Positions 26,571 to 62,400 of a stretch of 64,000 nt of DNA are shown piece after piece. The notes under the pieces were generated by a model. It made no database searches, was not told where the DNA came from, and saw nothing but the letters and a program-made list of their open reading frames with translations. This stretch comes from Argopecten irradians (taxonomy: Eukaryota > Mollusca > Bivalvia > Pectinida > Pectinidae). Where the stretch lies: positions 58,169,997 through 58,233,996 of the forward strand of contig NC_091135.1 of the NCBI RefSeq assembly GCF_041381155.1, given 5' to 3'. A program made the translations under genes and the position numbers. Every line of letters starts with the position of its first letter. Positions within the stretch are counted from its first letter, which is position 1.

Positions 26571-29500
26571 CTGAAGGTTAAAGGGTCATTTCAAAATAAA
26601 TATCAGTAGCGAGACCTCAAATAATCAAACTAACGTAAAACATGTTTATAACGAACACACAACATGGTTATAACGTAGGAATTTTCATTCCTCGGCAATA
26701 GTCCTATAAGATGAATGTGATATGTGGATAACAAGCTATGATTATAACTAAGTGATTTCATCTAAAAGGTGTGTTATAACAGTGTTTTACTGTACTAGGC
26801 AAATCCACCTTTTAAATGTTTGATTTTTTTCAATCCCCTGTGCCTCTCCTCTTATAAATCGCCTCTTTGTAAGCATACCTACATTTGATCTTTTTGAAGA
26901 ACAAGCATTCAGAAATAAAATGTATGAAATACCTTGATGTACTGGTATAACAAGAGTTATTTTCCCTAGAATGACTTACCATCATAAATCTTCTGAGTTC
27001 CAGTAACCTTCTCTATGGCAGATTTCCACTTGGTATATTCATCAGTATTCAATGCTACAAACTGAAGAAAACATCTGATACAAACAATAAATCTTACAAC
27101 AAACCCTAAACCAATGTCCCACTAATACATCCACAACAAACCCTAAACCAATGTCCCCCTAATACATCCACAACAAACCCTAAACCAATGTCCCCCTAAT
27201 ACATCCACAACAAACCCTAAACCGATGTCCTCCAATACATTCCCAACAAGCCTTAAACCAATGTCCCCCTAATACATCCCCAACAAACCCTAAACCAATG
27301 TCCCCCTAATACATCCACAACAAACCCTAAACCAATGTCCCCCTAATACATCCACAACAAACCCTAAACCAATGTCCTCCTAGTGCTTCCACAACAATCC
27401 CTAAACTAATGTCCCCCTAATAATCCACAACAAACCCTAAACCAATGTCCCCCTAACACATCCACAACAAACCCTAAACCAATGTCCCCCTAAAACATCC
27501 ACAACATACCCTAAACCAATGTCCCCCTAGTGCATCCACATCAAACCCTAAACCAATGTCCCCCTAACACATCCAAAACAAACCCTAAACCAATGTCCCC
27601 CTAATACATCCACAACATACCCTAAACCAATGTCCCCCTAATACATCCACAACAAACCCTAAACCAATGTCCCCCTAATACATCCACAACAAACCCTAAA
27701 CCAATGACCCCCTAATACATCCACAACAAACCCTAAACCAATGTACACCTAATACATCCACAACAAACCCTAAACCAATGTCCCCCTAATACATCCACAA
27801 CAAACCCTAAACCAATGTCCCCCTATAGTGCATCCACAACATACCCTAAACCAATGTCCCCCTAATACATCCACAACAAACCCTAAACCAATGTCCCCCT
27901 AATACATCCACAACAAACCCTAAACCAATGTCCCCCTAATACATCCACAACAAACCCTAAACCAATGTCCCCCTAATACATCCACAACAAACCCTAAACC
28001 AATGCCCCCCTATAGTGCATCCACAACATACCCAAAACCAATGTCCCCCTAATACATCCACAACATACCCTAAACCAATGTCCCCCTTATACATCCACAA
28101 CAAACCCTAAACCAATGTCCCCCTAACACATCCACAACAAACCCTAAACCAATGTCCCCCTTATACATCCACAACAAACCCTAAACCAATGTCCCCCTAA
28201 TACATCCACAACAAACACTAAACCAATGTCCCACTAACACATCCACAACAAACCCTAAACCAATGTCCCCCTAATACATCCACAACAAACCCTAAACCAA
28301 TGTCCCCCTAATACATCCACAACAAACCCTAAACCAATGTCCCCCTTATACATCCACAACAAACCCTAAACCAATGTCCCCCTAACACATCCACAACAAA
28401 CCCTAAACCAATGTCCCCCTAATACATCCACAACAAACCCTAAACCAATGTCCCCCTAGAGCATCCACAACAAACTCTAAACCAATGTCCCCCTAATACA
28501 TCCACAACAAACCCTAAACCAATGTCCCCCTAACACATCCATCCACAACAAACCCTAAACCAATGTCCCCCTAGAGCATCCACAACAAACCCTAAACCAA
28601 TGTCCCCCTAGTGCATCCACAACATACCCTAAACCAATGTCCCCCTATAGAGCATCCACAACAAACCCTAAACCAATGTCCCCCTAATACATCCACAACA
28701 AACCCTAAACCAATGTCCCCCTAATACATCCACAACAAACCCTAAACCAATGTCCCCCTAGAGCATCCACAACAAACCCTAAACCAATGTCCCCCTTATA
28801 CATCCACAACAAACCCTAAACCAATGTCCCCCTAATACATCCACAACAAACCCTAAACCAATGTCCCCCTAGAGCATCCACAACAAACCCTAAACCAATA
28901 TCCCCCTAATACATCCACAACAAACCCTAAAGTCCATGAATGTAAATAAGTAATCCTTTATAATTATCTACCAGAGGCCTTGACGGTCACCTGAGTGCTG
29001 CTACAGAAAGAGCATTGCAATGTTTGTTCAAATCTGTAAAAAGTAGTTACAAATAAGAATAAACTTTAAAGTTGAACCTTTGCATTAGAATTTTTATTTT
29101 TTGTTTTTCACTTTGATAGTTAGTGTATTATGTTACCAAACCTTATGCTTAAAATTCCAATTATCTTTGCCAATGTTAAAAAACAAAACCAATCTGGAAG
29201 TCAGTCAGTGTCAGTGATTTTATAAATTTCTCTTTTTAATGTATAAAGATTATTTGGTTCCATTAAACCTGTGAACTCAGAAGAAGATTTTTAGGTCACC
29301 TGAGACGAAGTCTCAAGTGACCTATTCTAATCACCTTTTGTCCGTCGTCGTGCGTCATATGTCCGTAAACAATTTACATTTTCGACTTCTTCTCAAAAAC
29401 AGCTGAAGCAAATTCAATGACATTTTGCACAAACCTTCTGAGGCATAAGGCCAATCAAAATTGTGAGTTATATGGTCCGCCACCCCCTGGGGCTGTTTGG

Positions 29501-32500
29501 AGAGCCAAAAGGGGTAAAATTGACTATAATTTCAAAAATCTTCTCCGCTCACAGATGTGATGGAATCAAATACTCTTCATAGATAGAAAGGTCTGAAGGT
29601 CCTTTACAAAAACTGTGAATTATATGACCCTGGGGTCTCAGGTTTGCCCCTTGGGGAGGGGGTTAACTTTACTATAGTTAATATAGGGAAAACACATTTT
29701 CGAGCATTATTTGGTCATTTGTAAAAGGAAATGAGTCCAAATGTTGTCAGAACTAATCCCTATGAAAAGGCCATCTGTGAATCCTATTAACAAATTTTCC
29801 ATAACTTGACTCCCAGGGGCCTTAGGGGTTGGACCAAAAGGGGTCAATAAGCTAAAACTTCAAAAATCTTCTTCTGAAATTCTGGAACTGGTAGAATCAA
29901 ATACTCTTCATAGATGGAGAGGTCTTAAGGTCCTTTACAAAAATTGCTTATTTTTCATAGGAAATTAGTCAAACTGGGTTAGAATTATTAGTCTGAGATA
30001 GCATTTATCCATATTGGGCCTGGCTGACCCCCAGGGGCCTTAGGGGCGGGGCCAAAAAAGGGTCAAATAGGCTAAAACTTCACTTCAAAAATCTACTTCT
30101 GTATTCACAGATTTGATGGAACCAAATACTCTTCATAGATTGGAAGGTCTTAAGGCCCTTTACAAAAATTGTGAATTTCATGGCCCTCGGGATCTCAGAT
30201 TTTGCCCCTGGGGAGGGGGTCAAATTTACTTTATTTTATATTGGCAAGACACATTTATGAATGTTTATTTGCTTATTTTTTCATAGGAAATTAGTCAAAC
30301 TGGGTTAGAATTATTAGTCTGAGATAGCATTTTATCGTCATATCCATATTGGTCCTGGCCGACCCCCAGGGGCCTTAGAGGCGAGGCCAAAATGGCTAAA
30401 AATTTCAAAAATCTTCTTCTTAATTCACAGGTTTGATGGAACCAAATAATCTCCATAGATTAAAAAGTGAAATTTATAAAATCACTGACACTGACTGACT
30501 TCTAGTTTGGTTTTGTTGTTTAACGTTAGCAAAGCAAATTGGAATTTTAAACATAAGGTTTGGTAACATAATACACTAACTATCAAAATGAAAAACAAAA
30601 AATAACAAGAGATCCCAGAGGGATCTTAGCGCCCACCAAAGAATGATCTATGTTTGACAAAGAAAGAGGGATCTTTTCTCTGCTTTTAAAACTTTTACTA
30701 CATATTACTACATATGAAATTTGAGAAAGATCCTTTGAGAACTATCCGAGATATAAAACGATAACAAATATCAATTATCAAATTCCAAGATGGTGGCCTG
30801 TTGGCCATCTTGTTGACCGATTGGTCCTTAAGTTCAACATGCACAACTAGACCAGTAGGGGAACCTGCAAAAAAAATTGGAGACAGATCCCTTCAGTACT
30901 TTTTGAGAAATAGTGGTAACAAGCTTCAACTAACAAAATCCAAGATAGAGGCCTTTCAGCCATCTTGTTCATCAATCAGTCTCAAATGCAATATGCACAA
31001 CTAGACCCCTAGGGGAACATGGACACAATTTGAGACAGATCCCATCAGTACTTTTGAGACAGAGGCCCAGAGGGCCATCAGTACTGGTTTTTGAGTAAAA
31101 CAAGAAGGCCCAGAGGGCCTGTATCGCTCACCTGGTTTTTTGTTAGTAATTATCACAAGACTCTGACAATTAGAAAAATAAGCAAAATTGACTCCCAAAG
31201 TTTAATTTTGAATCACAACCATACAATGATGCTATTGATACCATACAAATATGCTATCCAATACATAGGTTCAGAGACAAAGTAATTTATATGAAAATAG
31301 TAGCCTAATTGACCTTCTTGACCTCGCATCTATTGCCGTTTAAGGCCCCGGGGTCAGCCCTATCATTTGTACAATTTCAAATCCCAACCCTATGGATGCT
31401 ACCATTGCATTATAAGTGCTCTTCCATTCTTAGTTGCAGAGAAGAAGTCGTTTATATGGAAATAGCTAAATTGACCCCTTTTGACCCCACCCTTCAGGCT
31501 CCCAGGGGGGTCAGCCCCATCATTTGCAAAATTTTGAATCCAAACCCTATAAGGATGTAACCGTTGCATTATGAGCGCAATCCCATGTTAAAGGTGATAA
31601 AAACAGATTTTAAATATGCTATTTTTGTGTTGATATTTGTTTATTGTGGTGCACTTTATGATTTCCAACAAAAAATACAGGTTGTATTTGACGTAATTTC
31701 AATAAAATGTGCTTGAAACGTAGTCCACAACGACCCTTGTCAAGAACGATCGCATCGCTTATCGCCCCTGATATCACCAGGTGGCCGTAAATTCGTGACG
31801 TCATCTGAGACCAACAGCTTTGACAAGAGCCGGGAAAATTCAATGGGGCATGTTGCGGTATTGACGATTATAGATATTTAAAACAGTCGCGCTACGTGCA
31901 GTTGCTATATTGATAAGTGGAAATGTATCCGTATATATAATATACAATTTATAACATACCCTGCTATGGTAAAAACGATCGTTTACTCATTCCAATCGTC
32001 ATATTCTGGGCTATAAAATTGTTATGTTCTTTAGGTCAAAAGTCATTTGATATCATGTACGTGTGTGTCAACTCAGGTTCGAGGAGGTTACGCTTGACTT
32101 TTGATTGCAAATTAAAACTCTAAACATAAAGTTTATATCAACAAGAAGAAATATAAGTTTACAAGAAAATGGACCCAAACAACAATGACACTACATGCTT
32201 TAATGTACATACACATAATGCATATATTTATAAAAGTAGACCCCGCCACCCTTCATACCCTTTCTAAAACCCTATCATACCGCGACAAACGTGCCCCTAT
32301 CCCGCCTTATGTATGCACTACACACCTCTATTTCCTAATTGGAACTTAATCCTTCAGAACACCACACAGAAAGGGTTAGGCTTATTTATTTTTTTAAGTT
32401 CTGTAATGAATTTTACGGATTTATTCGACAATATTTCGGGACTTTCCGTGTACGAAAATAGAATAGCATGTATAGTAGTAACAATACACGCACGACCGAT

Positions 32501-35500
32501 AAAAAAGACTGGACAAAACACAGATACTAGATACAATGACCAAATATGCATGACATGTACTCGTGGACAAGATATATATATGCATGTTTAATAGTTCAAC
32601 TAACACAGGGCCATGGAACAACATATTTCTTATAAAACACAGTTGTTCTTGTTCCGCTATCATTCATATATCAAAATCCTTAAGTAAATTTTAAAAGTAA
32701 CTAACAGGGGGCCTGTCGGCCATCTTGTTGACCGACTGGTCCCAAAATGCAATATGCACAACTACACCTCTAGGGGAACCTACATGTGAAATTTGAGAGA
32801 GATCCCTTCAATACTTTCTGAGAAATAGCGGTAACAAACTTTATCAATCAAAATCCAAGATGGGGCCTGTCGGCCATCTTGTTGACCGATTGGTCCCCAA
32901 AATGCAATATGCACAACTACACCCTAGGGGAACCTACATGTGAAATTTGAGAGAGATCCCTTCAGTACTTTCTGCGAAATAGCGGTAACAAACTTTAACT
33001 ATCAAAATCCAAGATGGCCGCCTGTCGGCCATTTTGTTGACTGATTGGTCCCAAAATACAATATGCACAACTAGGGCCCTAGGGGAACCTACATATGAAA
33101 TTTGAGAAAGATCCCTTTGGTACTTTCTGAGAAATAGCGGTAACAAAAAATGTTATCGGACGGAAGGACTGGGACGGACGGAAGGACGGACGAAAAGCGA
33201 TTTGAATAGCCCACCATCTGATGATGGTGGGCTAAAAATTCTAATACGAAAGTTCAACTTTATAGTTTATTTTATAATTCGTAAATAATTTTTATAGATT
33301 GGAACCAACTTTGCAATGCTCTTTCTGTAGCAGCACTCAGGTGACCGTCAAGGCCTCTTGGGCCTCTTGTTGAAATATTAGCCTTTTGACCCTTTTTGGC
33401 TCCGCCTCTCTGGTCCCTGGGGTCAGCCAGGACCAATATGGATATGGTGTTAAAATGCTATTTCAGGCTAATAATTCAAACCCAGTTTGACTCATTTCAA
33501 ATAATGTTCATAAATGTGTTTTTCCTATATAAACTATAGTAAATTTGACTCCCTCCCCAGGGAAAAATCTGAGATCCCAGAGCCATGAAATTCACACATT
33601 TTGTAAAGGGCCTTAAGACCTTTCAATCTATAAAGAGTGTTTGGTTCCATCCAATCTGTGAATTCAGAAGAAAGATTTTTGAAAAGTTAACAAATTTGAC
33701 CCCTTTTGGCCCCGCCCCTCTGACCCCTGGGGGTTGGCCAGGACAAATATGAATATGACGTTAAAATGCTTTCTCAGGCTAATTATTCTAAGCCAGTTTG
33801 ACTCATTTCCTATGAAAACAAAGCAAATAATGTTCATAAATGTGTTTTTCCTATATAAACTATAGGAAATTTGACCCACTCCCCAGGGAAAAAATCTGAG
33901 ATCCCAGGGCCATGAAATTCACAATTTTTTTAAAGGACCTTAAGACCTTCCAATCTATGAAGAGTATTTAATTCTACCACATCTGTGAGTGGAGAAGAAG
34001 ATTTTTGAAATTTTAATCAATTTTACCCCTTTTGGCCCTTCCTACAGCCCCCTGGGGGGTGGGGGTCATATAATTCACAATTTTGATTGGCCTTAGGAGG
34101 TTTGTGCAAAATTTCATTGGAATTGCTTTAGTGGTTTTTGAGAAGAAGTCGAAAATGTAAATTGTTTACGAACACACAACGGACGACGCACGACGACGGA
34201 CAAAAGGCGATTAGAATAGGTCACTTGAGACTTCGTCTCAGGTCACCTAATGAATCCCTTCCATCCTGAAAAAAATCACCAAAGGACTAAGACTGGTTCC
34301 GAACTAACCTCTTCCAAAGTATAAATTACTCAAATGCTACAATCTCTTTAAAGGTGATAAAAACAGAACGGACATGAAAAATGAGATAATACGCTAGAAA
34401 CATTTGTAATGCCTATCTAAACATATACCAGTTTGATATTTGCTTATATTTTGTCTCTAAATAGTAAAATTAATGAAAGCAATCTTCATATCTTTTCGAC
34501 GACAGATTTTTTTCTATGACTTACCTCCCTTGAGTTCCGATGAGTTGTGACGTCATCTGAGACAATCAACTACCGGAAGCCGGTGTGCCGATCGCGGAAC
34601 TGTCAACATGCATGTGTATTTTAGCCACATGTCTTAGTACTTACGGAAATACACACGGAGAAAAATATGTTATATTTCGACTATTTGGGTAACGTGATTT
34701 ATCCCCTACATAATGACACATTATTGACGTCATAACCTATGAAATGACGTCACTACATGTAAATAATGATGTCATTAATGTCGCGGGTACATATGTCATG
34801 TGGCTTATGGTGTGCCAGGGGTTAAACCACGAATGAATAAGTAGTTCTTTCCTATTCAGTCCACCCTGGAGTAATACGACTGTGCATGTATGTAATTTAT
34901 AGTTTACACATAAAATTAACCGAGGAGTTTTGATATACATAGAATCTACTGGTAATTTTATGTGCGAAATAAGATCGTAGCGAAAATGGACAATTATTGG
35001 GGCCCACCTCTTTAGACCTACGTTTTAATAGAAAAATTATCTGTTACAAACATACGGAGACATGAAAAATACATGCAGATTAAAAGAAAAAACTGAAATG
35101 TTCTCAAAATGCGCATTAAAAATAAAAGAGATCCTTCTGCACATTTTCCATACTTCATTTTAGGGATTTTCATATTTATTTTGGGTTACACAACAATGTA
35201 CCGGTGGTGTGAAACCGGTATGTTCAGATCTAGTCCGCTAAACCTGCCTATATTATCAGGCTTTTTTAATTATTTTTTTTGCCTCATATATAGGGGAGAA
35301 AAAAGCCTAATAATATAGGCAGGTTTAGCGGACTAGTTCAGATCGAGCAGGGTTGCATAATGATATGACGACATTCACAGTTATCATTATTTAATTGCAG
35401 GAATTTAAATTCGAAAAATTACCATGTTAAGAACGCTCTAAAGTCATCAAAATACATCGTAAAACTCATCTCAGCAATCCTAAATACATTAAGTAATATT

Positions 35501-38170: not shown

Positions 38171-38696
38171 GATGGCGTCCCCGGGTAACGTGAGTGAAGC
38201 AGTGAACACATGTGTGATTTTCTCGGTTAATTTATTCTGAGTTTTATATATTATTATATAGTAACACTCTGCATGGTAGTGCGTCGGCAGAGTTTGTAAC
38301 AGCTGTCTCCCTTTGTACGGACTGTTCTTGTTAACATGTTCGTCAGTTTGGGGGAATTCTAGTTCATTTTTAACACAAAGGCATGTATATGCCTTGTGTT
38401 TATACAAGCACGTATGGCTGACCTACTCATTTAAATGCGGTTGACCTGTCATTTAAATGCGATTTTTTCTTTATCTTCTTCTTATTCATACCTACCTTCC
38501 ATTACACATCTTTGAATTAACGAATATCTATAATGATGATTTAATTTGGGAATAAGATACCAAGGACTCATAAAAAAAGTACGATTAAAGTCGCTATTTA
38601 CGTACAATGGTCAAGACAAATTTACATAAGTTATGGTGATTTCTGCCAGTCATTTGCATATGTGTACGTATCTGCGCAACTTCCGGTTGAAAGAAG
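38171..38696. other. Flank upstream of the possible SKAP-like start
   Basis: Contains a short GC-rich patch (CCCCGGGTAACG) just upstream of the candidate ATG. No further SKAP exon was recognised up to the window's next repeats, so this may hold the promoter. Confidence 0.3.
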
Positions 38697-38704
38697 GTCA
38701 CACA

Positions 38705-38854: not shown

Positions 38855-38862
38855 GTCACACT

Positions 38863-39934: not shown

Positions 39935-42900
39935 CAAGAGGCCCAAAGGGCCTTAACGGTCATCTGACTACCTTGGCAATAGTAAAATTAATTTTATATG
40001 GTGTCACTTTGTCAGGGACCATGTCAGGATCATTTTCAATTTTTTTCAACAAATTTTATTTCAAACAAGAGGCCAAAGGGCCTTAACATGTAGGAAATTA
40101 ATTAGATATAGTGTCATGGTAGCCATCTTCGATTTGGGATCAACCAGAGAGATGTTAACAAACACTTTGTCGTGACCATGTCAGGATCATTTCATGCAAG
40201 TTTCAGACAAATCGCACAGTAGAACTTGAGAAGAAGTTCAAAATGTGTTTTCAAGATGGCGGCCATCTTGGATTTCGGATCGACCCGAAAAATAACAACA
40301 CTTCTGTCGGGACCATGTCAAGATCATTTCATGCAAGTTTCAGCCAAATCGCACAGGTAGAACTTGAGAAAAAGTTCAAAATGAGTTTTAAGATGGCGGC
40401 TGTGGCCATCTTGGATTTCGAATCGACCCGAAGAATAAAACACTTTGTCAGGACCATGCCAGGATCATTTCATGCAAGTTTCAGCCAAATCGAACCGTGT
40501 AGAACTTGAGAAGAAGTTCAAAATGTGTTTTCAAGATGGCGGCCATCTTGGATTTTGGATCGACCCGAAAAAATAACAACACTTTGTCGGGACCATGTCA
40601 AGATCATTTCATGCAAGTTTCAGCCAAATCGCACCGGGGGGGACGGAACTTGAGAGAAAAGTTCAAAATGAGTTTTCAAGATGGCGGCTGTGGTGGCCAT
40701 CTTGGATTTCGGATCGACCCGAAAAATAACAAACACTTTGTCGGGACCATGTCAGGATCATTTCATGCAAAGTTTCAGTCAAATCGCATCAGGTAGAACT
40801 CTTGAAGAAGTTCAAAATGTGTTTTCAAGATGGCGGCGTGTGGTGGCTACCATCTTGGATTTTGGATCGACCCGAAAAAATAACAACACTTTGTCGGGAC
40901 CATGTCAGGATCATTTCATGCAAGTTTCAGACAAATCGCATCTGGTTAGAACTTGAGAAGAAGTTCAAAATGTGTTTTCAAGATGGCGGCTGTGGCGGCC
41001 ATCTTGGATTTTGGATCGACCCGAAAAATAACAACACTTTGTCGGGACCATGTCAGGATCATTTCATGCAAGTTTCAGCCAAATCGCACTAGGTAGAACT
41101 TGAGAAGAAGTTCAAAATGTGTTTTCAAGATGGCGGCTGTGGCGGCCATCTTGGATTTCGGATCGACCCGAAAAATAACAACACTTTTGTCGGGACCATG
41201 TCAGGATCATTTCATGCAAGTTTCATCCAAAATCGCACAGGTAGAACTTGAGAAGAAGTTCAAAATGTGTTTTCAAGATGGCGGCTTTGGCGGCCATCTT
41301 GGATTTCAGATCGACCCGAAAAATAACAACACTTTGTCGGGGACCATGTCAGGATCATTTCATGCAAGTTTCAGCCAAATCGCACCGGTAGAACTTGAGT
41401 AGAAGTTCAAAATGTGTTTTTCAAGATGGCGGCTTTGGCGGCCATCTTGGATTTCAGATAGACCCGAAAAATAACAAAACTTTGTCGGGACCATATCAGG
41501 ATCAATTTCATGCAAGTTTTCAGACAAATCGCACCTGGTAGAACTTGAGAAGAAGTTCAAAATGTGTTTTCAAGATTGGCGGCTGTGGCGGCCATCTCGG
41601 ATTTCGGATCAACCCAAAAATAACAACACTTTGTCGGGACCATGTCAGGATCATTTCATGCAAGTTTCAGCCGAATCGCACTGGTAGAACTTGAGAAGGA
41701 AGTTCAAAATGTGTGTTTTTAAGATGGCGGCTGTGGCGGCCATCTTGGATTTCGGATCGACCCGAAAAATAACAACACTTTGTCGGGGACCATGTCAGGA
41801 TCATTTCATGCAAGTTTCAGCCAAATCGCACTGTTAGAACTTGAGAAGAAGTTCAAAATGTGTTTTTCAAGATGGGGGCTGTGGCGGCATTTGGCGGCCA
41901 TCTTGGATTTCGGATCGACCCGAAAAAATAACAAACCTTTGTCTGGACCATGTCAGGATCATTTCATGCAAGTTTCAGACAAATCACACTGGTAGAACTT
42001 GAGCAGAAGTTCAAAATGTGTTTTCAAGATGGCGGCTGTGGCGGCCATCTTGGATTTCGGATCGACCCGAAAAATAACAACATTTTGTCGGGACCATGTC
42101 AGGATCATTTCATGCAAGTTTCATCCAAATCGCACAGATAGAACTTGAGAAGAAGTTCAAAATGTGTTTTCAAGATGGCGGCTGTGGCAGCCATCTTGGA
42201 TTTCGGATCGACCCGTAAAAATAACAACACTTTGTCGGGACCATATCAGGATCATTTCATGCAAGTTTCATCCAAATTGCACAGGTAGTAGAACTTGAGA
42301 AGAAGTTCAAAATGTGTTTTCAAGATGGCGGCTTTGGCGGCCATCTTGGATTTCAGATCGACCCGAAAAATAACAACACTTTGTCGGGGACCATGTCAGG
42401 ATAATTTCACGCAAGTTTCAGTCAAATCGCACAGGTAGAACTTGAGAAGAAGTTCAATATGTGTTTTCAAGATGGCGGCTTTGGCGGCCATCTTGGATTT
42501 TAGATAGACCCGAAAAATAACAACACTTTGTCGGGACCATGTCAGGATCATTTCATGCAAGTTTCAGAAAAATCGCACTGGTAGAACTTGAGAAGAAGTT
42601 CAAAATGTGTTTTCAAGATGGCGGCTGTGGCGGCCATCTCGGATTTCGGATCGACCCGAAAAATAACAACACTTTGTCGGGACCATGTCAGGATCATTTC
42701 ATGCAAGTTTCAGCCAAATCGCACTGGTAGAACTTGAGAAGAAGTTAAAAATGTGTTTTCAAGATGGCGGCTGTGGCGGCCATCTTGGATTTCGGATCAA
42801 CCCGAAAAATATTAACACTTTGTCAGGACTATGTCAGGATTATTTCATGCAAGTTTCAGCCAAATCGCACAGGTAGAACTTGAGAAGAAAGTTCAAAATG

Positions 42901-42991
42901 TGAAAAGTTAACGCACGGCGCACGGCGCACGGCGCACGGACGAAACATGACGACTATAGGTCATCCTGACCCTTCGGGTCAGATGACCTAA
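39935..42991 (+). mobile_element. Hairpin-ended element with 146-bp array (GGTCATCTGAC family)
   Basis: 5' end CAAGAGGCCCAAAGGGCCTT then ACGGTCATCTGAC. The 3' end is repeated CGCACGG, then a hairpin GGTCATCCTGACCC/GGGTCAGATGACC, ending CTAA at 42991. A second, partly deleted 5' end (CAAGAGGCCAAAGGGCCTTA) lies at 40066, so two ends were captured or a 5' piece was duplicated. The 63-114 codon frames here are array artefacts. Confidence 0.8.
40130..42900. repeat. 146-bp array with palindromic ATGGCGGC core
   Basis: About 19 units, each with CAAGATGGCGGC...GGCGGCCATCTTG (a 10-13-bp stem), GATCGACCCGAAAAATAACA and CATTTCATGCAAGTTTCAGC. AAGATGGCGGC matches the known YY1 consensus. The palindrome is kept in almost every unit while the rest varies by small indels. 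Confidence 0.88.
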
Positions 42992-42994: not shown

Positions 42995-44203
42995 CAAGAG
43001 ATCCCAGTGGGATCTTGGTGCCCACCAAAGAATGATCTATGTCTGACAATGGAAAGAGGGATCTTTTCCCTGCTTTTCAAAATTTTTCAAACACACTACA
43101 TATAAAATTTGAGACAGATCCCTATAGTACTTTCTAAGAAATACCTGGTAGTGGTAACAAACTTCAACAATGAAATCTAAGATGGCGGCCGGTTTGCCAT
43201 CTTGTTTATACCGATCAGTCCCGAAAGGCATTATGGATCAGTCCTTAAATGTACTATGCACAACTAGGGTACAAGGGGAAACTATGCATGGAATTTGAGA
43301 AAGATCCCTTCAGTACTTTCTGAGAAATAGCGATAAACAAACTTTAACTATCAAAATCCAAGATGGCCGTCAGTCAGTCATCTTGTTTACCGATCGGTCC
43401 CAAAATGCAATATGCACAACTAGGGTCTAGGGGAACCTGTATATGAAATTTGAGAAAGATCCCTTGCGCACTTTTTGAAATAGTGGTAATAAACTTTAAC
43501 CATTAAAATCCAAGATGGGCTGCCTGTCGGCCATCTTGTTGACCAGTCGGTCCCAAAATGCAATATGCACAACTAGGGTCCTAGGGGAACCGACATATGA
43601 AAATTGAGAAAGATCCCTCAGTACTTTTTGAGAAATAGCGGTAACAAACTTTAACTATCAAAATCCAAGATGGCCGCCTATCGGCCATCTTGTTCACCGA
43701 TCGGTCCGAAAATGGAACATGCACAACTAGGGTCCTAGGGGAACCTATATATGAAATTTGAGAGAGATCCCTTCAGTACATTTTGAGAAATAGCGGTAAC
43801 AAACTTTAACTATAACTATCACAATCCAAGATGGCCGCCTGTCGGCCATCTTGTTCACCGATCCGTCCCAAAATGCAACATGCACAACTAGGGTCCTAGG
43901 GGACCCTATATATGAAATTTGAGAAAGATCCCTTCAGTACTTTTTGAGAAATAGCGGTAACAAACTTTAACTATCAAAATCCAAGATGGCCGCCTGTCGG
44001 TCATCTTGTTCATCGATCGGTCCCAAAATGCAATATGCACAACTAGGGTCCTAAGGAAACCGACATATGAAATTTGAGAAAGATCCCTTCAGTACTTTCT
44101 GAAAAATGGCAGTTAGAAGAATTGTTAACGGACGGACGGACGGAAGGACGGACGGACGGACCACGGACCACGGACGAAAGGCGATTTGATGATGGTGGGC
44201 TAA
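42995..44203 (+). mobile_element. GATCCC-family hairpin element
   Basis: 5' end CAAGAGATCCCAGTGGGATC starts three bases after the CTAA of the preceding element. About six monomers of roughly 150-160 bp contain CCAAGATGGCCGCCTGTCGG plus CCATCTTG and CTAGGGTCCTAGGGGAACC. The 3' end is a GGACGGACGGAAGGACGG tract and GATGATGGTGGGCTAA. The last 45 bases region is duplicated (see 44188-44277). Confidence 0.85.
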
Positions 44204-44277
44204 TGAGGCCTCCTACTGAGTAAACTATATCCGATGATGGTGGGCTAATAAGGCCTCCTACTGAGTAAACTATGCCA
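44188..44277. repeat. 45-bp tandem duplication of element end plus flank
   Basis: GATGATGGTGGGCTAATGAG...ACTATATCC (44188-44232) is followed by a second copy with two or three changes. Each copy joins the element's 3' terminus to about 29 bases of host flank. Confidence 0.85.
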
Positions 44278-46300: not shown

Positions 46301-46309
46301 AGACGCTTT

Positions 46310-46605: not shown

Positions 46606-46650
46606 TTAAATTACCGTAATTACGCGTGAAGCATACATTTTAAATTTTTA

Positions 46651-49135: not shown

Positions 49136-49230
49136 TTTCATTTTAACCAGTTATCTTGGTAATTTTGCTATTACTCTTAAATGAAATACAATGTTTTTCG
49201 TAACCAAAAAAAAAATAATTTGGATAATAT

Positions 49231-49700: not shown

Positions 49701-49723
49701 TCCATCTGGCTTTAATTATAATT

Positions 49724-51052: not shown

Positions 51053-51111
51053 ATAATCATTATGGTTTTGACCTGGATTTGATTTTGTTAAATCATATTT
51101 CATTTTATTAG

Positions 51112-51359
51112 GAAAGAAAGTAATGTGTTCTTTCACATGAGCTCGGTGGTAAGTCAGATTCCAAGTTCAAAGAAGACACAGAAGAATCAGTTCATCAAAA
51201 GCCTGCGTTCTGATTGGCTGTTCTATCAGGAAATGACACGGTTCCAGCGACATCCCATGGTGAGGACTTGTACCATGGTGTCCCCTGTTACTGTAGCTGT
51301 GTTTGCTGGGCCAGCCAAACTCTCACCAGACGCTGTCAAGGACAAGCATCTCAACAGAA
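51112..51359 (+). pseudogene. YTHDC2-like exon, intact frame
   Basis: Acceptor TTTTATTAG, donor GTAAGA. The frame is open from KESNVFFHMSSVVSQIPSSK to LSPDAVKDKHLNR. The CTMVSPVTVAVFAGPAKL segment corresponds to the SPxxxxLFxG motif before the OB fold of DExH helicases. Confidence 0.75.
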
Positions 51360-51701
51360 GTAAGATTTTACTGCTAATTCTGCAATAAATGAAATAATTT
51401 GTAACTGCCAATTAACAAACATTGAAGATTTTTTTGGTAAATTCAAAGATAACCTGCTAAAGATTAAGTGTAATATTTAATTATGAATATCATTCCAAAC
51501 ATATTTCAAACTATTGACTTCAGAGACAATGTAATCAATGGGAAACAGAAAGTTGATCCTTTCTTAGTTTTAAATTTTGATTTGTTTGTTAGATATAAAG
51601 TTAATCGTTCTTCCATTTATTTAACGGTGGGTACCAAAATCTCTGTTTTCATGACAGCTGTGTGTAAAAATGATGAAAAAAATGCCCTTTACTATCTGTA
51701 G

Positions 51702-51823
51702 ATTTGGGTATACGAGGAGAGTTTGGTAGTGAAGAAAGTGATAGTGAAGGGGAGGACAAAGAAGATGACAGAAAAACCACATTGCAGTTGGACGAATGGC
51801 TCGGCTTCAGACTTGACAATGAG
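51702..51823 (+). pseudogene. YTHDC2-like exon, intact frame
   Basis: Acceptor ATCTGTAG, donor GTTAAT (weak at +3/+5). It encodes LGIRGEFGSEESDSEGEDKE then DDRKTTLQLDEWLGFRLDNE. An acidic stretch followed by LDEWLxFxLD is a YTHDC2 hallmark. Confidence 0.75.
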
Positions 51824-52272
51824 GTTAATAAGCTTATAGCCTGACAGATAGACTCGGGGGGTTTTGTTACCTCTAATGAACAATAAAAAAACAAATAAAG
51901 GGAGTAGTTGTTTTAGCTAAAAGCAGTAAAAGAAGAGGCATTGAGTTATCAATTATATAATACACTGTAGTGCTTACTGTGAAATAATTTTTAATTTGTT
52001 GCTAGATTTAATTTTTTTTATTAGTATTTCCTCTCATTACAACCATGCTAAATATAATTCGTTAACTTTTGGCAAAAGTTTTATTTTAAGTCTGTCTGAT
52101 TTAGCTGATCTCAGTTTTGTAGATAAACGACTTTTTTATCACAAAACTAGCCTGTCCAGCATCATGTCGGCATACGGCCAGTCATAAATATCGTAAGACA
52201 CATGTGTAGTAACACTATTATGACGTCACATTTTTTACGTCACAATGTTAGCTAAAATATATGACAATGCAT

Positions 52273-52440
52273 GATTTTTTGCATGCAGAACGATGGGTCA
52301 TTAGTGCTTCATTTGAGACAGAAATGGAACAGTCTTTTGTTACGAAGAATGAAATGAGCACCTCCTGCAAAACCTGGTCCCCAGCTGGGATGAGGAGACA
52401 AACTTTGTTTAGACCCCCGGGGGAAGTAACACTGATCCTC
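52273..52440 (+). pseudogene. YTHDC2-like exon with premature stop and frameshifts
   Basis: From acceptor GCATGCAG: NDGSLVLHLRQKWNSLLLRR then MK-stop. After the TGA the expected APxKPWSQ(L/V)DE residues are still visible in pieces (APPAKP, then a shifted DE-E), so the stop and at least two indels arose in formerly coding sequence. Confidence 0.7.
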
Positions 52441-52620
52441 GTAGGTTTGTTTGGGTAAAATGTTGGTTTATAAAGAAAAATAATTATATTATAGCATATC
52501 TAAACCATGCAATCAATAAGAAAATGGGAAGAATTTAAATTATCAGTTTTAATTTCATTAGAGTAGATACTTTTTTAATTATTGGAGAAGTAATTATAAT
52601 TCTAAAAATTGTATTTTCAG

Positions 52621-52760
52621 TCCGTGCTTTAGAACCATTGTCAATGTGTCGTTAAGGATGTGAGGAGATCAAACCATGGAACTACAACATGCCTATGCTG
52701 ACCCCCCCGGGGGTTCGGATGGAGCGACCCCGAAGTCAATGAGTATGCTTGATTTCCATA
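52621..52760 (+). pseudogene. YTHDC2-like exon remnant
   Basis: Starts VRAL in one frame and ends DQTMELQHAYADPPGGSDGA then TPKSMS in another, resembling the YTHDC2 stretch EEQSAGLQQP...RPRPMS. Stops and a one-base shift separate the two halves. C7 and G5 runs lie in the middle. Confidence 0.55.
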
Positions 52761-53495
52761 TATACCTCTTTATATCTTATAATTGGGGTACAGATAATCC
52801 ATTTAAAGATTTGTTAAAGATGATTAATATGTATAAAAAAAAACATAGCCACATGTGTTGCCTAACCTCAATAAAATAATCTATGGTAGAAATTTCAAAT
52901 ACCTAATATATCGGCTTATTGATGGTATGAAATAATCATGGAAGTCTCATAAAAGTGAAGAAATAAAAAACATTCTAAGAAAAAAATTGAAATAGTTGAA
53001 GTCTAGATTTGATATTGATGTATTTTGTTTTCAAATGGATTTAGAGTTTCAACATTAGGATACTTGTAGCTGCTGAGAACCATCATGTCAGGAAGCAGTG
53101 GGAAGGGAAACTTTGACTTCTGTTAACACCTCCAGGGAACAACTTCCAATTCCAGGCAGAGTAAGATTTAATCTTCTATTGGTGTTTAATGTACCATTTT
53201 AGGGAGTGGGATCCATTTCATAGATAATGCTGCATACCAGTTTAGGCTGATTTGGCAAACGTTTGATTAAAAATAATAGTCAAATTTACATATGACAAAT
53301 CCTGTTCATAGTGATTATAAAAGAAGCAATGAAATATCTTGAGTGACAAAATTTCAAATTTGCAGTTTTCCTACTACAATTAGTTATATAATATTAATAT
53401 TCAGTGGGCTATGCGCTTACTCAATTGATTAAGCCATTAAAATTGGTTGACCAAGAATCAAGGTGGGACAAAATATATGACTAAGTTCAATTGTA

Positions 53496-54683
53496 CAGTA
53501 AATACCCGTCTATATAAACACGCCATTGTTCAAATTTCCAATTATTGGCGTATATACACGAGTTACACTAGGGTAGCGGTCTTAAATAGCGGATTTGCGT
53601 TCGTTGAAATCACTTACGAATTAAGGCCTAAAACAAGTAGTCCCCCGGTGCCACAGTCATACTCATGAAACAGACTTTCTAGTCATCTGTATAGGTACGG
53701 CCAACTTCGTAATTTTGTTAAATATGATGTGGATCTCCCCCGCGCGGGCCTGTAATTAGACAAAGGGGGTAATTCGATATAGTTAGTCTTTCTAATCAAC
53801 ATTTAAGCTTCTATACCTCTGTAAAAACATTTGGATAGCACTCACGTATAACGTGCCAAGTTGCCTGCTAGCTATGGGATTTTTTCTACGGATTCAACAT
53901 GATAAATAGATAACATTAAGTTGTGGGTGAACCGCCCGGAAAACAAAGAAATTAGCAAGTTCGAACAAGCGCAGTGCGGTCGTGACCTCACTTTGCATGT
54001 CTGTCAAAATCAACGGTAATAAACGACAATCTCATAACAACGGCGATTTGATAACTTACATAATAACGGCGGATCTTATGTGATAGTGGGTATGGCTTCA
54101 TGAAATGAGTAATGATGGGTTTCTATCAGGGCTCTCTGAGAACTTCCGTATATGGTCCAAGATAAAAAAAAATCGATCGGAGGTTATCCGTAGAAATAGA
54201 CCTTAGTGGGTTTCATTTTTGTCAATAAATAACTAACGTTTACGTTAGTACGTAAAACACAATGTACACAGTTGTAGAGTTTTATTCACCAATACTTGCG
54301 AAACCTACCTTAAAATAATAACAAAGGTGTACCCATACTTGTTAATTGATGTCACTGTGTACACACGGTCGTACACTAAGCGCCATAGTGTGTAGCTGAT
54401 TACCTGTCAGTGCCGAAAAGCAGTTGAGCCCACCTTACGAAAAACATGTGAGAAACCCTATCAACAGAATTATGGCGTTATAATAACGATGGTGGCATTA
54501 TAGATTGTTATTTGTAATCATTTGTTCCGCAAATGTTGATGGCGGATGTGGTAGGCCGGTTTGGCGGTTGATAACGGTTGTATTTGTATGGAGGGAAATC
54601 CGATCTGAATAAATTCATTGGCGATAAGCGAGTTTTTGGCGGTAAAAACGGGTCGTGGCAAAATATAACAGGGGTTTTGACTG
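53496..54683. mobile_element. Possible pogo/Tc1-like non-autonomous element
   Basis: Ends CAGTAAATACCCGTCTATAT and, inverted, CAGTCAAAACCCCTGTTATA, each bordered by TA, 1188 bp apart. CAGT starts with TA duplication fit pogo/Tigger-like elements. The ends match only partly, and the internal frames show no transposase or DDE motif. It lies between remnants of the YTHDC2-like fragment. Confidence 0.5.
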
Positions 54684-56956
54684 TATACAATGAAAATTGG
54701 CTAATGACTGTATAACCAGAAAGTGCTTTATTGGCAAAAACATGTAGTAAATAATTTAAATATGTTGATTTCCACTCCAAGTGAAAAACGCAACCAACCA
54801 CATAGATTGTCTTTTTAGTGATTCTTTTAGGATTATACTTTGGCAATATGAGTCATGATTTGAAATAATATCTATATATTTAGTGCAAATACATTGAATT
54901 TTGACACTATTGAAAGTATTGGATTATTCTGTATTTCATTTCATTGATGTTTTGACAGGAGCCAACACAAGTTGGAATGGGAGATGACATCCGCCGTCAG
55001 TAGCATTCTCCATCGACTAACACCAGCCTGAGAGGATGCCATGTCCAGTAATACGTACTATGAGTCCTGGTCCAGGGGGTTAACTTTACTATGAGTTAAT
55101 ATAGGGAAAACACATTTTCGAGCATTATTTGGTCATTTGTAAAAGGAAATGAGTCAAATGTTGTCAGAACTATCCCTATGAAATGGCCATCGAATCCTAT
55201 TAACAAATTTTCCATAACTGACTCCCAGGGGCCTTAGGGGTTGGACCAAAAGGGGTCAAATAAGCTAAAACTTCAAAAATCTTCTTCTGAAATTCTGGAA
55301 CTGGTAGAATCAAATACTCTTCATAGATGGAGAGGTCTTAAGGTCCTTTACAAAAATTGCTTATTTTTCATAGGAAATTAGTCAAACTGGGTTAGAATTA
55401 TTAGTCTGAGATAGCATTTATCCATATTGGGCCTGGCTGACCCCCAGGGGCCTTAGGGGCGGGGCCAAAAAGGGTCAAATAGGCTAAAACTTCAAAAATC
55501 TACTTCTGTATTCACAGATTTGATGGAACCAAATACTCTTCATAGATTGGAAGGTCTTAAGGCCCTTTACAAAAATTGTGAATTTCATGGCCCTGGGATC
55601 TCAGATTTTGCCCCTGGGGAGGGGGTCAAATTTACTTTATTTTATATTGGCAAGACACATTTATGAATGTTATTTGCTTATTTTTCATAGGAAATTAGTC
55701 AAACTGGGTTAGAATTATTAGTCTGAGATAGCATTTTATCGTCATATCCATATTGGTCCTGGCCGACCCCCAGGGGCCTTAGAGGCGAGGCCAAAATGGC
55801 TAAAATTTCAAAAATCTTCTTCTTAATTCACAGGTTTGATGGAACCAAATAATCTCCATAGATTAAAAAGTGAAATTTATAAAATCACTGACACTGACTG
55901 ACTTCTAGTTTGGTTTTGTTGTTTAACGTTAGCAAAGCAAATTGGAATTTTAAACATAAGGTTTGGTAACATAATACACTAACTATCAAAATGAAAAACA
56001 AAAAATAACAAGAGATCCCAGAGGGATCTTAGCGCCCACCAAAGAATGATCTATGTTTGACAAAGAAAGAGGGATCTTTTCTCTGCTTTTAAAACTTTTA
56101 CTACATATTACTACATATGAAATTTGAGAAAGATCCTTTGAGAACTATCCGAGATATAAAACGATAACAAATATCAATTATCAAATTCCAAGATGGTGGC
56201 CTGTTGGCCATCTTGTTGACCGATTGGTCCTTAAGTTCAACATGCACAACTAGACCAGTAGGGGAACCTGCAAAAAAAATTGGAGACAGATCCCTTCAGT
56301 ACTTTTTGAGAAATAGTGGTAACAAGCTTCAACTAACAAAATCCAAGATAGAGGCCTTTCAGCCATCTTGTTCATCAATCAGTCTCAAATGCAATATGCA
56401 CAACTAGACCCCTAGGGGAACATGGACATGCAATTTGAGACAGATCCCATCAGTACTTTCTGAGAAACAAGAGGCCCAGAGGGCCTGTATCGCTCACCTG
56501 GTTTTTTGTTAGTAATTATCACAAGAATCTGACAATTAGAAAAATAAGCAAAATTGACTCCCAAAGTTTAATTTTGAATCACAGCATACAATGATGCTAT
56601 TGATACCATACAAATATGCTATCCAAACATAGGTTCAGAGACAAAAGTAATTTATATGAAAATAGTAGCCTAATTGACCTTCTTGACCTCGCATCTATTG
56701 CCGTTTAAGGCCCCGGGGTCAGCCCTATCATTTGTACAATTTCAAATCCCAACCCTATGGATGCTACCATTGCATTATAAGTGCTCTTCCATTCTTAGTT
56801 GCAGAGAAGAAGTCGTTTATATGGAAATAGCTAAATTGACCCCTTTTGACCCCACCCTTCAGGCTCCCAGGGGGGTCAGCCCCATCATTTGCAAAATTTT
56901 GAATCCAAACCCTATAAGGATGTAACCGTTGCATTATGAGCGCAATCCCATGTTAA

Positions 56957-59505
56957 AGGTGATAAAAACAGATTTTAAATATGCTATTTTTGTGTTGATA
57001 TTTGTTTATTGTGGTGCACTTTATGATTTCCAACAAAAAATACAGGTTGTATTTGACGTAATTTCAATAAAATGTGCTTGAAACGTAGTCCACAACGACC
57101 CTTGTCAAGAACGATCGCATCGCTTATCGCCCCTGATATCACCAGGTGGCCGTAAATTCGTGACGTCATCTGAGACCAACAGCTTTGACAAGAGCCGGGA
57201 AAATTCAATGGGGCATGTTGCGGTATTGACGATTATAGATATTTAAAACAGTCGCGCTACGTGCAGTTGCTATATTGATAAGTGGAAATGTATCCGTATA
57301 TATAATATACAATTTATAACATACCCTGCTATGGTAAAAACGATCGTTTACTCATTCTAATCGTCATATTCTGGGCTATAAAATTGTTATGTTCTTTAGG
57401 TCAAAAGTCATTTGATATCATGTACGTGTGTGTCAACTCAGGTTCGAGGAGGTTACGCTTGACTTTTGATTGCAAATTAAAACTCTAAACATAAAGTTTA
57501 TATCAACAAGAAGAAATATAAGTTTACAAGAAAATGGACCCATACAACAATGACACTACATGCTTTAATGTACATACACATAATGCATATATTTATAAAA
57601 GTAGACCCCGCCACCCTTCATACCCTTTCTAAAACCCTATCATACCGCGACAAACGTGCCCCTATCCCGCCTTATGTATGCACTACACACCTCTATTTCC
57701 TAATTGGAACTTAATCCTTCAGAACACCACACAGAAAGGGTTAGGCTTATTTATTTTTTTAAGTTCTGTAATGAATTTTACGGATTTATTCGACAATATT
57801 TCGGGACTTTCCGTGTACGAAAATAGAATAGCATGTATAGTAGTAACAATACACGTACGACCGATAAAAAAGACTGGACAAAACACAGATACTAGATACA
57901 ATGACCAAATATGCATGACATGTACTCGTGGACAAGATATATATATGCATGTTTAATAGTTCAACTAACACAGGGCCATGGAACAACATATTTCTTATAA
58001 AACACAGTTGTTCTTGTTCCGCTTCATTATATTATCTAATCGTGCGCAGTTTTGGAAATAACAAACCTGTGAACCTTAAGTAAATTTTAAAAGTATACGA
58101 ACAGTCCACAGGGAATTGAGAATTAGTTAGTTTATATCAATATGGACACACTAGATAGCCTATTGAACATTATGAGACGATTTAGGGGTCTAGATAAAAA
58201 AAAAATCGGAAAAATTCGTATTCTACATATACGCAAATGTACTATGTAGAATATAACAGGAAATTAATGAGTATGCAAATTGGCCAAATTGGTGAGCATT
58301 GTGGTGTTTTGAGGGTTCGGGGAGACCCCCGGGAAAAATATTACGATTTAGAATGGCTGAGATATGAGTTTCACGATGTATTTTGATAATTTGCGAGCGG
58401 CGAAGGCGCGATATTTTGGTGTTTGGGGGTCCGGAGGTCTCCCCCGAGAAGGAAAAAATATTACTATTTACAATGGCTGTGATGAGTTTTACGATGTATT
58501 TTGATGATTTAAAAGCGTTCTTAACATTGTAATTTTTCGATTTTAAATTACCTGCATTTAAATAATGATAATATTGTGAATGTCGTCTTATCATTATGCA
58601 ACCCTGCTTGATCTGAACATACCGGCTTCACACCATCGGCACATTGTTGTGTAACTCAAAGTACAAAGAAATGTAATAACGAATTAATTGTCTTGCTAAG
58701 ACTTATACACATTTTTTGAAATACATGTAGTAGAATCACTAAAATGAAGTATGAAAACTGTACAAGAGGACCTTTTTTCTTTTAAATGCACAGAACATTT
58801 CAGTCGACGAAAATGGGGGGCAAAACGACACAACAGATAAATGATTGTTTTTTCTTTTAATCTGCGTGTATTTTTTTTATGTCTCCGTATGTTTGTAACG
58901 CGTGATTTTTTTTATCAAAACGTAGGTCTAAAGAGGTGGGCCGCAATAATTGTCCATTTTCACTACGAGCTTATTTTGGACATAGAATTACCGGTATGTA
59001 CATATATATCAAAACTCCCCGGTTCATTTTATGTGTAAACTATAAATTACATACATGCACAGTCGTATTACTACAGGGTGGACTGAATAGGAAAGTAATA
59101 TTTATTCATTCATTTTATAGGTTATGACGTCAATAATGTGTCATTATGTAGGGGATAAATCACGCTACCCAATAAGTCGAAATATAACATATTTTTCGCC
59201 GTGTGTATTTCCGTAAGTACTAAGACCTGTGGCTAAAATCCACATGCATGTTGACAGTTCAGCGATCGGCACACCGGCTTCCGGTAGTTGATTGTCTCAG
59301 ATGACGTCACAACTCATCGGAACTCAAGGGAGGTAAGTCATAGAAAAAAATCTGTCGTCAAAAAGATGTGAAGATTGCTTTCATTATTTTTACTATTTAG
59401 AGACAAAATATAAGCAAATATCAAACTGATATATGTTTAAATAGGACATACAAATGTTTCTAGCCTATTATCTCATTTTCCATCTCCCTTCTGTTTTTAT
59501 CACCT
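56957..59505 (+). mobile_element. TTAA-flanked element family E, copy 3 (2.55 kb, complete)
   Basis: Ends AGGTGATAAAAACAGA (inverted, 16 bp) bordered by TTAA at 56953-56956 and 59506-59509. Neighbour monomers have CCATGCTTAGTTGCAGAG where this site has CCATG-TTAA-GTTGCAGAG. Inverted blocks GTGACGTCATCTGAGAC lie about 200 bp from each end. Two CCCCCGxxAAxAATATTACGAT stretches repeat inside (58320-58460). The 123-codon minus frame at 58223-58594 covers them and has no known domain. Confidence 0.88.
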
Positions 59506-59514
59506 TTAAGTTGC

Positions 59515-60300
59515 AGAGAAAAAGTCATTTATATGGAAATTGACCACTTTTGACCCTGCCCCTCAGGCCCCCGGGGGTCAGCCCTATCATTTGCTCAATT
59601 TGGAATCCCCAGCCTACAAGGATGCTACCATTGCATTATGGGTGCTATACCATGCTTAGTTGCAGAGAAGAAGTCATTTATATGGAAATAGCCAAATTGA
59701 CCCCTTTTGACCCCGCCCCTCAGGCCCCCCGGGGGGTCAGCCCCATTATTTGTACAATTTTGAATCCCCAACCTATAAGGATGATATCATTGCATTATGG
59801 GTGCTATCCCATGCTTGGTTTCAGAGAAGAAGTCGTTTATATGGAAATAGCCAAATTGACCCCTTTTGACCCTGCCCCTCAGGCCCCCCGGGGGGTCAGC
59901 CCCATTATTTGTACAATTTTGAATCCCCAACCTATAAGGATGATATCATTGCATTATGGGTGCTATCCCATGCTTGGTTTCAGAGAAGAAGTCGTTTATA
60001 TGGAAATAGCCAAATTGACCCCTTTTGACCCCGCCCCTCAGCCCCCCCCCGGGAGTCAGCCCCATCATTTGTACAATTTTGAATCCCCACCCTATAAGGA
60101 TGCTACCATTGCATTATGGGTGCTATCCCATGCTTGGTTTCAGAGAAGAAGTCGTTTATATGGAAATAGCCAAATTGACCACTTTTGGCCCCGCCCCTCA
60201 GGCGCCCGGGGGGTCAGCCCCATCATTTGTACAATTTTCAGTTAGTAGCCCATAAGGATGCTACCAGTAAAATTTTATTGAAATCCGACCAGCGGTTATG
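59515..60300. repeat. About 160-bp tandem monomers of the pearl-type element
   Basis: Five units with TTTATATGGAAATAGCCAAA, TTGACCCCTTTTGACCCCGC, CCCCATTATTTGTACAATTT and GCATTATGGGTGCTATCCCA. The 231-codon open frame at 59550-60245 repeats with the units and is not taken as a gene. Confidence 0.85.
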
Positions 60301-62400
60301 GAGAAGAAGTCGATTGTTGACGGACGCCGGACGCCGGATGCCGGACGCCGGACGACGGACGCTGCAGTATCCCATAAGCTCACCTCGGTCCTTTGGACCA
60401 GGTGAGCTAATAATGGTAACAAGCTTCAACTATCAAAATCCAAGATGGCGGCCTGTCGGCCATCTTGTTCACCGATCGGTCCGAAAATGTGATATGCAAA
60501 GCTAGACCCCAAGGGGAACCTGCACATGCAATTTGACACAGATCCCTTAAGTACTTTCTGAGATAAAGCGGTAACAAACATCAATTATCAAAATCCAAGA
60601 TGGCGGCCTGGCGGCCATCTTGTTCATCCATCGGTCCAAAAATGCATAATGCACAACTAGGGCCCTAGGGGAACCTACATGTGAAATTTGAGAACAATCC
60701 CTTCAATACTTTCTGAGAAATAGCAGTAACAAACTTTATCAATCAAAATCCAAGATGGGGGCCTGTCGGCCATCTTGTTGACCGACTGGTCCCAAAATGC
60801 AATATGCACAACTACACCTCTAGGGGAACCTACATGTGAAATTTGAGAGAGATCCCTTCATTACTTTCTGAGAAATAGCGGTAACAAACTTTATCAATCA
60901 AAATCCAAGATGGCGGCCTGTCGGCCATCTTGTTGACCGATTGGTCCCAAAATGCAATATGCACAACTACACCCCTAGGGGAACCTACATGTGAAATTTG
61001 AGAGAGATCCCTTCAGTACTTTCTGCGAAATAGCGGTAACAAACTTTAACTATCAAAATCCAAGATGGCCGCCTGGCGGCCATTTTGTTGACTGATTGGT
61101 CCCAAAATACAATATGCACAACTAGGGCCCTAGGGGAACCTACATATGAAATTTGAGAAAGATCCCTTTGGTACTTTCTGAGAAATAGCGGTAACAAAAA
61201 ATGTTATCGGACGGAAGGACGGACGGACGGAAGGACGGACGAAAAGCGATTTGAATAGCCCACCATCTGATGATGGTGGGCTAAAAATTCTAATACGAAA
61301 GTTCAACTTTATAGTTTATTTTATAATTCGTAAATAATTTTTATAGATTGGAACCAACTTTGCAATGCTCTTTCTGTAGCAGCACTCAGGTGACCGTCAA
61401 GGCCTCTTGGGCCTCTTGTTGAAATATTAGCCTTTTGACCCTTTTTGGCTCCGCCTCTCTGGTCCCTGGGGTCAGCCAGGACCAATATGGATATGGTGTT
61501 AAAATGCTATTTCAGGCTAATAATTCAAACCCAGTTTGACTCATTTCAAATAATGTTCATAAATGTGTTTTTCCTATATAAACTATAGTAAATTTGACTC
61601 CCTCCCCAGGGAAAAATCTGAGATCCCAGAGCCATGAAATTCACACATTTTGTAAAGGGCCTTAAGACCTTTCAATCTATAAAGAGTGTTTGGTTCCATC
61701 CAATCTGTGAATTCAGAAGAAAGATTTTTGAAAAGTTAACAAATTTGACCCCTTTTGGCCCCGCCCCTCTGACCCCTGGGGGTTGGCCAGGACAAATATG
61801 AATATGACGTTAAAATGCTTTCTCAGGCTAATTATTCTAAGCCAGTTTGACTCATTTCCTATGAAAACAAAGCAAATAATGTTCATAAATGTGTTTTTCC
61901 TATATAAACTATAGGAAATTTGACCCACTCCCCAGGGAAAAAATCTGAGATCCCAGGGCCATGAAATTCACAATTTTTTTAAAGGACCTTAAGACCTTCC
62001 AATCTATGAAGAGTATTTAATTCTACCACATCTGTGAGTGGAGAAGAAGATTTTTGAAATTTTAATCAATTTTACCCCTTTTGGCCCTTCCTACAGCCCC
62101 CTGGGGGGTGGGGGTCATATAATTCACAATTTTGATTGGCCTTAGGAGGTTTGTGCAAAATTTCATTGGAATTGCTTTAGTGGTTTTTGAGAAGAAGTCG
62201 AAAATGTAAATTGTTTACGAACACACAACGGACGACGCACGACGACGGACAAAAGGCGATTAGAATAGGTCACTTGAGACTTCGTCTCAGGTGACCTAAT
62301 GAATCCCTTCCATCCTGAAAAAAATCACCATAGGACTAAGACTGGTTCCGAACTAACCTCTTCCAAAGTATAAATTACTCAAATGCTACAATCTCTTTAA

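Follow-up and report, generated by a model that had tools for sequence, protein, structure and literature searches.

The Helitron2 elements of Bao and Jurka (2013, PMC3627910) carry asymmetric terminal inverted repeats (ATIRs), and in the available part of that paper a comparison of two related elements reveals compensatory changes in their ATIRs, and pairing of one ATIR with the other is proposed to destroy the 5' hairpin and to set the endpoint of replication. Subterminal repeats also define families in the work of Thomas et al. (2014, PMC4067079), whose family rule, as given in the accessible part, is at least 11 bp of identical subterminal inverted repeats (subTIRs). This report deals with four families of such elements, called F1 to F4, in a stretch of 64,000 nucleotides from Argopecten irradians (contig NC_091135.1, C2:58169997-58233996), hereafter the window, and with their relatives in the rest of the genome (845.8 Mb in 1508 contigs). 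The elements are non-autonomous rolling-circle transposons, namely Helentrons (HINEs) with the Helitron2/Helentron order of ends, and in each family the two ends carry an ATIR pair of their own. These four families of non-autonomous Helentrons very probably keep their family-specific ATIR pairs because a single lineage of transposase has to act on both ends.

Matching of the two ends within families

Twelve elements with both ends were compared: five in the window, those in stretches L010 and L012, one small F2 element near the C9 locus and the four Rep-bearing loci described below. In all of them the 3' ATIR is complementary to the 5' ATIR of its own family, over 9-11 nt in F1, 7-8 nt in F2, 10-11 nt in F3 and 11 nt in F4, whereas complementary runs between families do not exceed 5 nt. 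The claim of the initial annotation that each family has at one end a motif complementary to the outer hairpin arm at its other end therefore holds, for runs of 7-11 nt. When the 3' 60-mers were shuffled by mononucleotide, only 8 of 24,000 trials reached the element's own match, and among the 24 possible pairings of the four families' ends the true pairing ranks first, with 40 matched nucleotides against 28 for the next. Set beside the 11-bp rule in the accessible part of PMC4067079, F4 comes to 11, F3 and F1 lie at or just under it, and the F2 match is short.

The motifs of the four families are present in the window at the positions initially annotated, and the elements to which they belong are the following.

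74..2602, plus strand: F1-alpha non-autonomous Helentron; 5' ATIR 77-86, 157-bp array 142-2505, 3' ATIR 2569-2578, then palindrome and CTCTTG
28973..28995, minus strand: 3' end of an F3 element; ATIR 28985-28995, terminal CTCTTG decayed, unconnected to 29291
29291..33369, plus strand: F3 Helentron; 5' ATIR 29294-29304, 3' ATIR 33336-33346; split by an F2 copy
30606..33235, minus strand: F2 element nested in F3; 5' ATIR 33226-33232, 3' ATIR 30631-30637
39935..42991, minus strand: F4 Helentron; 5' ATIR 42978-42988, 3' ATIR 39958-39968, 146-bp array 40537-42902
42995..44203, minus strand: F2 element; 5' ATIR 44194-44200 (again at 44239-44245), hairpin partner arm lost
56009..61284, minus strand: F2 element, duplicate of 30606-33235, containing a full F1 insertion; 5' ATIR 61275-61281, 3' ATIR 56034-56040
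56468..60410, minus strand: F1-beta Helentron nested in F2; 5' ATIR 60398-60407, 3' ATIR 56492-56501
61385..61418, plus strand: 3' end of the duplicated F3 copy; 3' ATIR, palindrome, CTCTTG
62286..62299, minus strand: 5' end of an F3 element; ATIR 62286-62296, own 3' end not found

The interval 28973-29291, initially annotated as one element, consists of two insertions, one leaving the minus-strand F3 3' ATIR at 28985-28995 and the other the plus-strand F3 5' end at 29291, whose partner is at 33369. The nested F3/F2/F1 cluster occurs twice in the window (30407-34060 and 55810-62109), the first copy being without part of F1 including the F1 5' end, and family counts there are inflated by this duplication. 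The F2 copies at 30606 and 56009 have identical 60-base ends, as have the F3 ends at 33369 and 61418, and since these lie in the duplicated segment they are not independent. Long tandem arrays outside the described elements are found at 2702-5873 (60 bp), 17560-18830 (28 bp), 21636-22973 (28 bp) and 27096-28931 (37 bp).

Exact-pattern counts over the genome gave 1,864 F3 5' ends and 2,504 F4 5' ends (backward control, 1), and 779 strict F4 3' ends (control, 0). Pairing was tested on contig C1 up to 37 Mb, with 32 exact F4 3' ends and, among the matches listed (to which all counts of 5' ends here refer), 100 F4 and 96 F3 5' ends. On the same strand, an F4 5' end precedes 19 of the 32 F4 3' ends at a distance of at most 6 kb and an F3 5' end precedes none, the means expected from random placement being 0.24 and 0.25, respectively. 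Within 6 kb on the wrong side, an F4 5' end is present for four of the 32 and an F3 5' end for two. When the nearest 5' end within 20 kb is taken, it is of F4 in 20 cases and of F3 in one, and 11 have none.

Element order, polarity and Rep-bearing loci

Ends were detected in the window and in 20 random 10-kb stretches of the genome, the 5' end as TTAG followed by a hairpin, with a microsatellite close by, and the 3' end, independently, as a palindrome before CTCTTG. This yielded 12 5' ends (7 in the window), all of which are accounted for by the four families, and 16 3' candidates (10 in the window). The 3' candidate at window position 11585 and the L023 row in the hairpin/ATIR survey were dropped as chance. 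Three hairpins without a microsatellite were also dropped, and so were matches outside the four families, for example L009:1604, which has a similar hairpin and a different following sequence. An F2 3' end with a mutated palindrome, L012:4054, was missed by the later detector and dropped.

Read in reverse complement to the initial annotation, the order is TTAG, 5' ATIR, loop, partner arm, GTCC-like microsatellite, body, 3' ATIR, palindrome and CTCTTG. The 5' ATIR is one arm of the terminal hairpin; in 12 of 12 compared elements, most of them found via their hairpin and the window copy at 42995 not among them, it lies at the extreme 5' end and forms the hairpin with downstream bases. In all 12 elements the distance between the 3' ATIR and the end of CTCTTG is 22-25 nt, and 3' ends lacking an ATIR occur too, at window position 40066 (a candidate that was dropped, its ATIR being lost) and in stretch L038. 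The body of F1, F2 and F4 is a tandem array with a unit of 146-159 bp, and the tandem-repeat listing that gave these arrays contained none for F3. A T follows CTCTTG at 15 of 15 insertion sites and precedes TTAG at 9 of 12, and the F1 copy inside F2 occupies the site GCTA/TTTCTCAG of the F2 repeat with no duplication, as judged from a paralogous unfilled site. With TTAG and CTCTTG as their ends, and with a hairpin at the 5' one, the elements are unlike canonical Helitron1 (5' TC, 3' CTRR, no 5' hairpin, A/T site), and a canonical Helitron reading with a CTRR end was dropped after comparison with the available part of PMC3627910 and in view of the direction of Rep toward CTCTTG. The polarity of the initial annotation, with CAAGAG as the 5' end and CTAA as the 3' end, has accordingly been reversed: CAAGAG is the complement of the 3' CTCTTG and CTAA that of the 5' TTAG, and the labels were swapped because Rep runs toward CTCTTG in three types and the order is that of Helitron2.

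The Rep family PF14214 has 104 matches in the genome contigs, and matched F1, F3 and F4 ends flank Rep genes, 15.7-18.6 kb apart and on the Rep-coding strand. Two loci, C11:11359790-11377272 (17.5 kb) and C626:14471-31576 (17.1 kb), are bounded by F1 ends, with an F1-type array following the 5' one, and C9:37370587-37389202 (18.6 kb) has F4 ends and the F4 array. At the F3 locus the 5' end, C1:16377933, is 9.1 kb upstream of Rep on the same strand, and the 3' ATIR, palindrome and CTCTTG, ending at C1:16393659, lie downstream in a 3-kb zone fixed beforehand from the spacing of the other types (6.3-8.3 kb beyond Rep). Judging from interiors read in part, each of the four loci is probably a single autonomous element. 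The initial annotation had looked to autonomous elements with the same ends, and such end pairs around Rep thus exist for F1, F3 and F4, with none found for F2. The Rep fragments are 82% identical between F3 and F4, 63% between F1 and F3 and 60% between F1 and F4. In the F4 protein, OTU-like, tegument-protein-like and DUF6570 domains precede Rep, and its end consists of a helicase tail and an Exo_endo_phos match (E 4.2e-5, 23.8 bits, 0.7 below the Pfam cut-off of 24.5); helicase tail and endonuclease were checked in F4 only, and Rep alone in the F1 and F3 loci. A comparison of the lists by eye shows the upstream segment of the F1 autonomous type preceding, on the same strand, 14 of the 104 Rep matches, one of them its own. 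A further candidate, the Rep copy D at C16, has no matching end in the stretch examined.

An apparent C11 element with an F2 5' end and an F1 3' end was dropped, since several collinear copies stop matching at the start of F2, so that F2 at C11 is an insertion nested there, and no 3' end of it was found; the match of one copy, on C376, is exact as far as the end of the T run, and the right-hand side of that copy is not alignable. F2 elements are present inside Rep-bearing F1- and F4-type loci at L037:6007 and L039:5063, and the several collinear copies that stop matching at L037:6007 suggest natural unfilled sites. In L037 a stretch of about 190 bp (approximately 5570-5760) has many matches on both strands and therefore looks like a separate palindromic mobile element. 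In Helentron proteins, OTU-like domains and domains like the N-terminus of the herpesvirus tegument protein are seen upstream of Rep at L033:372-5501 and L031:1-5298, and in translation retroelement-like polymerase frames adjoin the C11 F1 locus (L030:3936-6001, minus strand).

The imperfect hairpin and the explanations weighed

All 19 F1, F3 and F4 hairpins examined, including several F1 copies gathered by similarity to one query, have one defect near ATIR positions 7-9. It is a bulged T at position 8 in F1-alpha, a C-A mismatch at position 7 in F3, and a bulged G opposite the 7/8 step in F4 and opposite the 8/9 step in F1-beta. The mismatch in the F3 partner arm is kept in 99 of 100 among the matches listed, out of 1,601 fitting the pattern; partner arms altered in other ways, for example at the C1 locus, fall outside the pattern. 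Of 14 3' ends of these families (8 fetched by similarity being excluded), 12 have an ATIR that stays complementary through position 9; L019 and a decayed end in L038 do not. In F2 the 3' ATIR is short and the hairpin, in 5 distinct intact copies, is a perfect one of 10 bp, and the window copy at 42995 has lost its hairpin partner arm. The alpha and beta forms of the F1 5' end, seen in L001-L005, L016, L037, L041 and at window positions 77 and 60407, differ in their bulge and, within the inner stem, by a matched change from C-G to T-A, and have the same ATIR.

For nine F1, F3 and F4 elements, the predicted energy of the ATIR duplex is -13.4 to -16.1 kcal/mol and that of the hairpin -5.6 to -13.8 kcal/mol. 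The duplex is predicted to be the stronger in 8 of these 9 and in none of the three F2 elements, and when both ends are joined in silico, 2 of 12 fold to the ATIR duplex and 10 of 12 to the hairpin.

According to the favoured explanation, one transposase lineage would handle both ends of the same element, so that family-specific asymmetric inverted repeats are kept. The transposase would nick at the 5' TTAG end and transfer would end at CTCTTG; the single-stranded 5' ATIR could fold into the terminal hairpin or instead pair with its 3' counterpart, and the exchange might help to define the end point. Matched ends together with Rep types 60-82% identical fit ends that have diverged together with their transposase. 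Several points weigh against this explanation. Thirteen of the 32 F4 3' ends on C1 are without an exact F4 5' end within 6 kb among the matches listed, and have no F3 5' end there either, and one F4 3' end has, within 20 kb, an F3 5' end as its nearest. There are only four families, and permutation at the family level is limited to 1 in 24. The autonomous F1 copy at C11 is mismatched at position 10 of its 3' ATIR, an autonomous partner of F2 was not found, and the predicted duplex is slightly weaker than the hairpin (by 0.1-1.0 kcal/mol) in 4 of 12 elements, three of F2 and one of F1. Furthermore, a distant Rep (B) at C15, which shares 38-40% identity with the others, is followed by an F1-like 3' end, with no 5' end found; a second transposase may use F1-like ends, and one transposase per end type is therefore not proven.

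The descent of each family as a unit accounts for the matching without continuing coevolution. Combined with recognition of double-stranded DNA, it would make both ends binding sites of one transposase, and the ends would never pair; we give this explanation slightly less than an even chance. The ATIRs differ less where the Reps do (F3 and F4 at 2 of 11 positions, with Reps 82% identical, as compared with 60-63% for the F1 Rep), and single-strand pairing is not required by any observation here. However, mere binding sites give no reason why one copy rather than the other should be imperfect, so the contrast between the partner arm, imperfect in 19 of 19 hairpins, and the 3' ATIR, perfect through position 9 in 12 of 14, counts against it.

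An extension of the pairing model of Bao and Jurka, as far as the available part of PMC3627910 sets it out, would have the imperfect 5' hairpin let the arriving single-stranded 3' ATIR displace the partner arm and so mark the end of transfer. The defect in all 19 hairpins, of three kinds (bulged T, bulged G and C-A mismatch), its retention in the listed F3 matches and the duplex predicted to be stronger in 8 of 9 elements agree with such a hairpin-to-duplex switch; it is possible, as the defect fits it and does not prove it. However, F2, with its perfect hairpin, 7-8 nt 3' ATIR and stronger duplex in 0 of 3, does not conform, fixation within a family may stem from one ancestor, and the joined ends mostly fold to the hairpin; this extension is considered rather unlikely. 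It is still more doubtful that the imperfect hairpin, with its family-varying defect, serves as a DNA switch verifying that both ends are of the same family before transfer is ended. A rolling-circle element beginning with CAAGAG and finishing with CTAA is very improbable, for although CTAA resembles the CTRR of canonical Helitrons and has a hairpin just inside it, the Rep genes are oriented the opposite way in all three types, and the ATIR position, microsatellite and palindrome match Helitron2 only once reversed.

Relation to described systems

These elements bear on how Helentrons recognize their two ends and on the autonomous drivers of satellite-carrying copies. Three families share ends with three types of Rep-bearing loci in one genome and natural end variants occur at known positions, so that end specificity and the hairpin switch are directly testable by end swapping, for which the elements are a clean natural test set. 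In the available parts of PMC4067079, PMC7492417, PMC5148889, PMC3627910 and PMC11136912 there is no mention of the hairpin defect and no autonomous partner for bivalve-type HINEs, and a literal literature search for the end sequences gave, among the 30 matches listed of 382, only papers that looked unrelated by title. However, matched ATIRs, compensatory change, the pairing model and the HINE anatomy have already been published (2013, 2014 and 2020). The family-specific matched ends of the initial annotation are thus kept, in 12 elements and for F4 on 37 Mb of C1, but the matched switching between families is not new, being already in the accessible part of PMC3627910.

As far as the parts at hand describe them, three systems come close. 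The Helentron/DINE-1/HINE group (PMC4067079) has, as here, subTIR-defined families, TT insertion and a Rep-helicase-endonuclease partner; host and sequences are different here, and the F2 ATIR is under the 11-bp rule. Cg_HINE of Crassostrea gigas (Vojvoda Zeljko et al. 2020, PMC7492417) likewise has a subTIR with a complementary inverted repeat, a GTCC-type microsatellite, central tandem repeats, a 3' subTIR with a palindrome, and oligo-T sites, but that study could not connect it with autonomous elements, whereas three families here are linked to Rep-bearing loci by their ends. In Helitron2 (PMC3627910), like here, the 5' ATIR lies 0-2 nt from the end and forms the 5' hairpin, and the 3' ATIR, at 20-30 nt from the 3' end, immediately precedes a second hairpin. 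In contrast to Helitron2, the elements described here form four co-resident families, in three of which matched ends flank a Rep type of the family's own, and have a recurrent hairpin defect.

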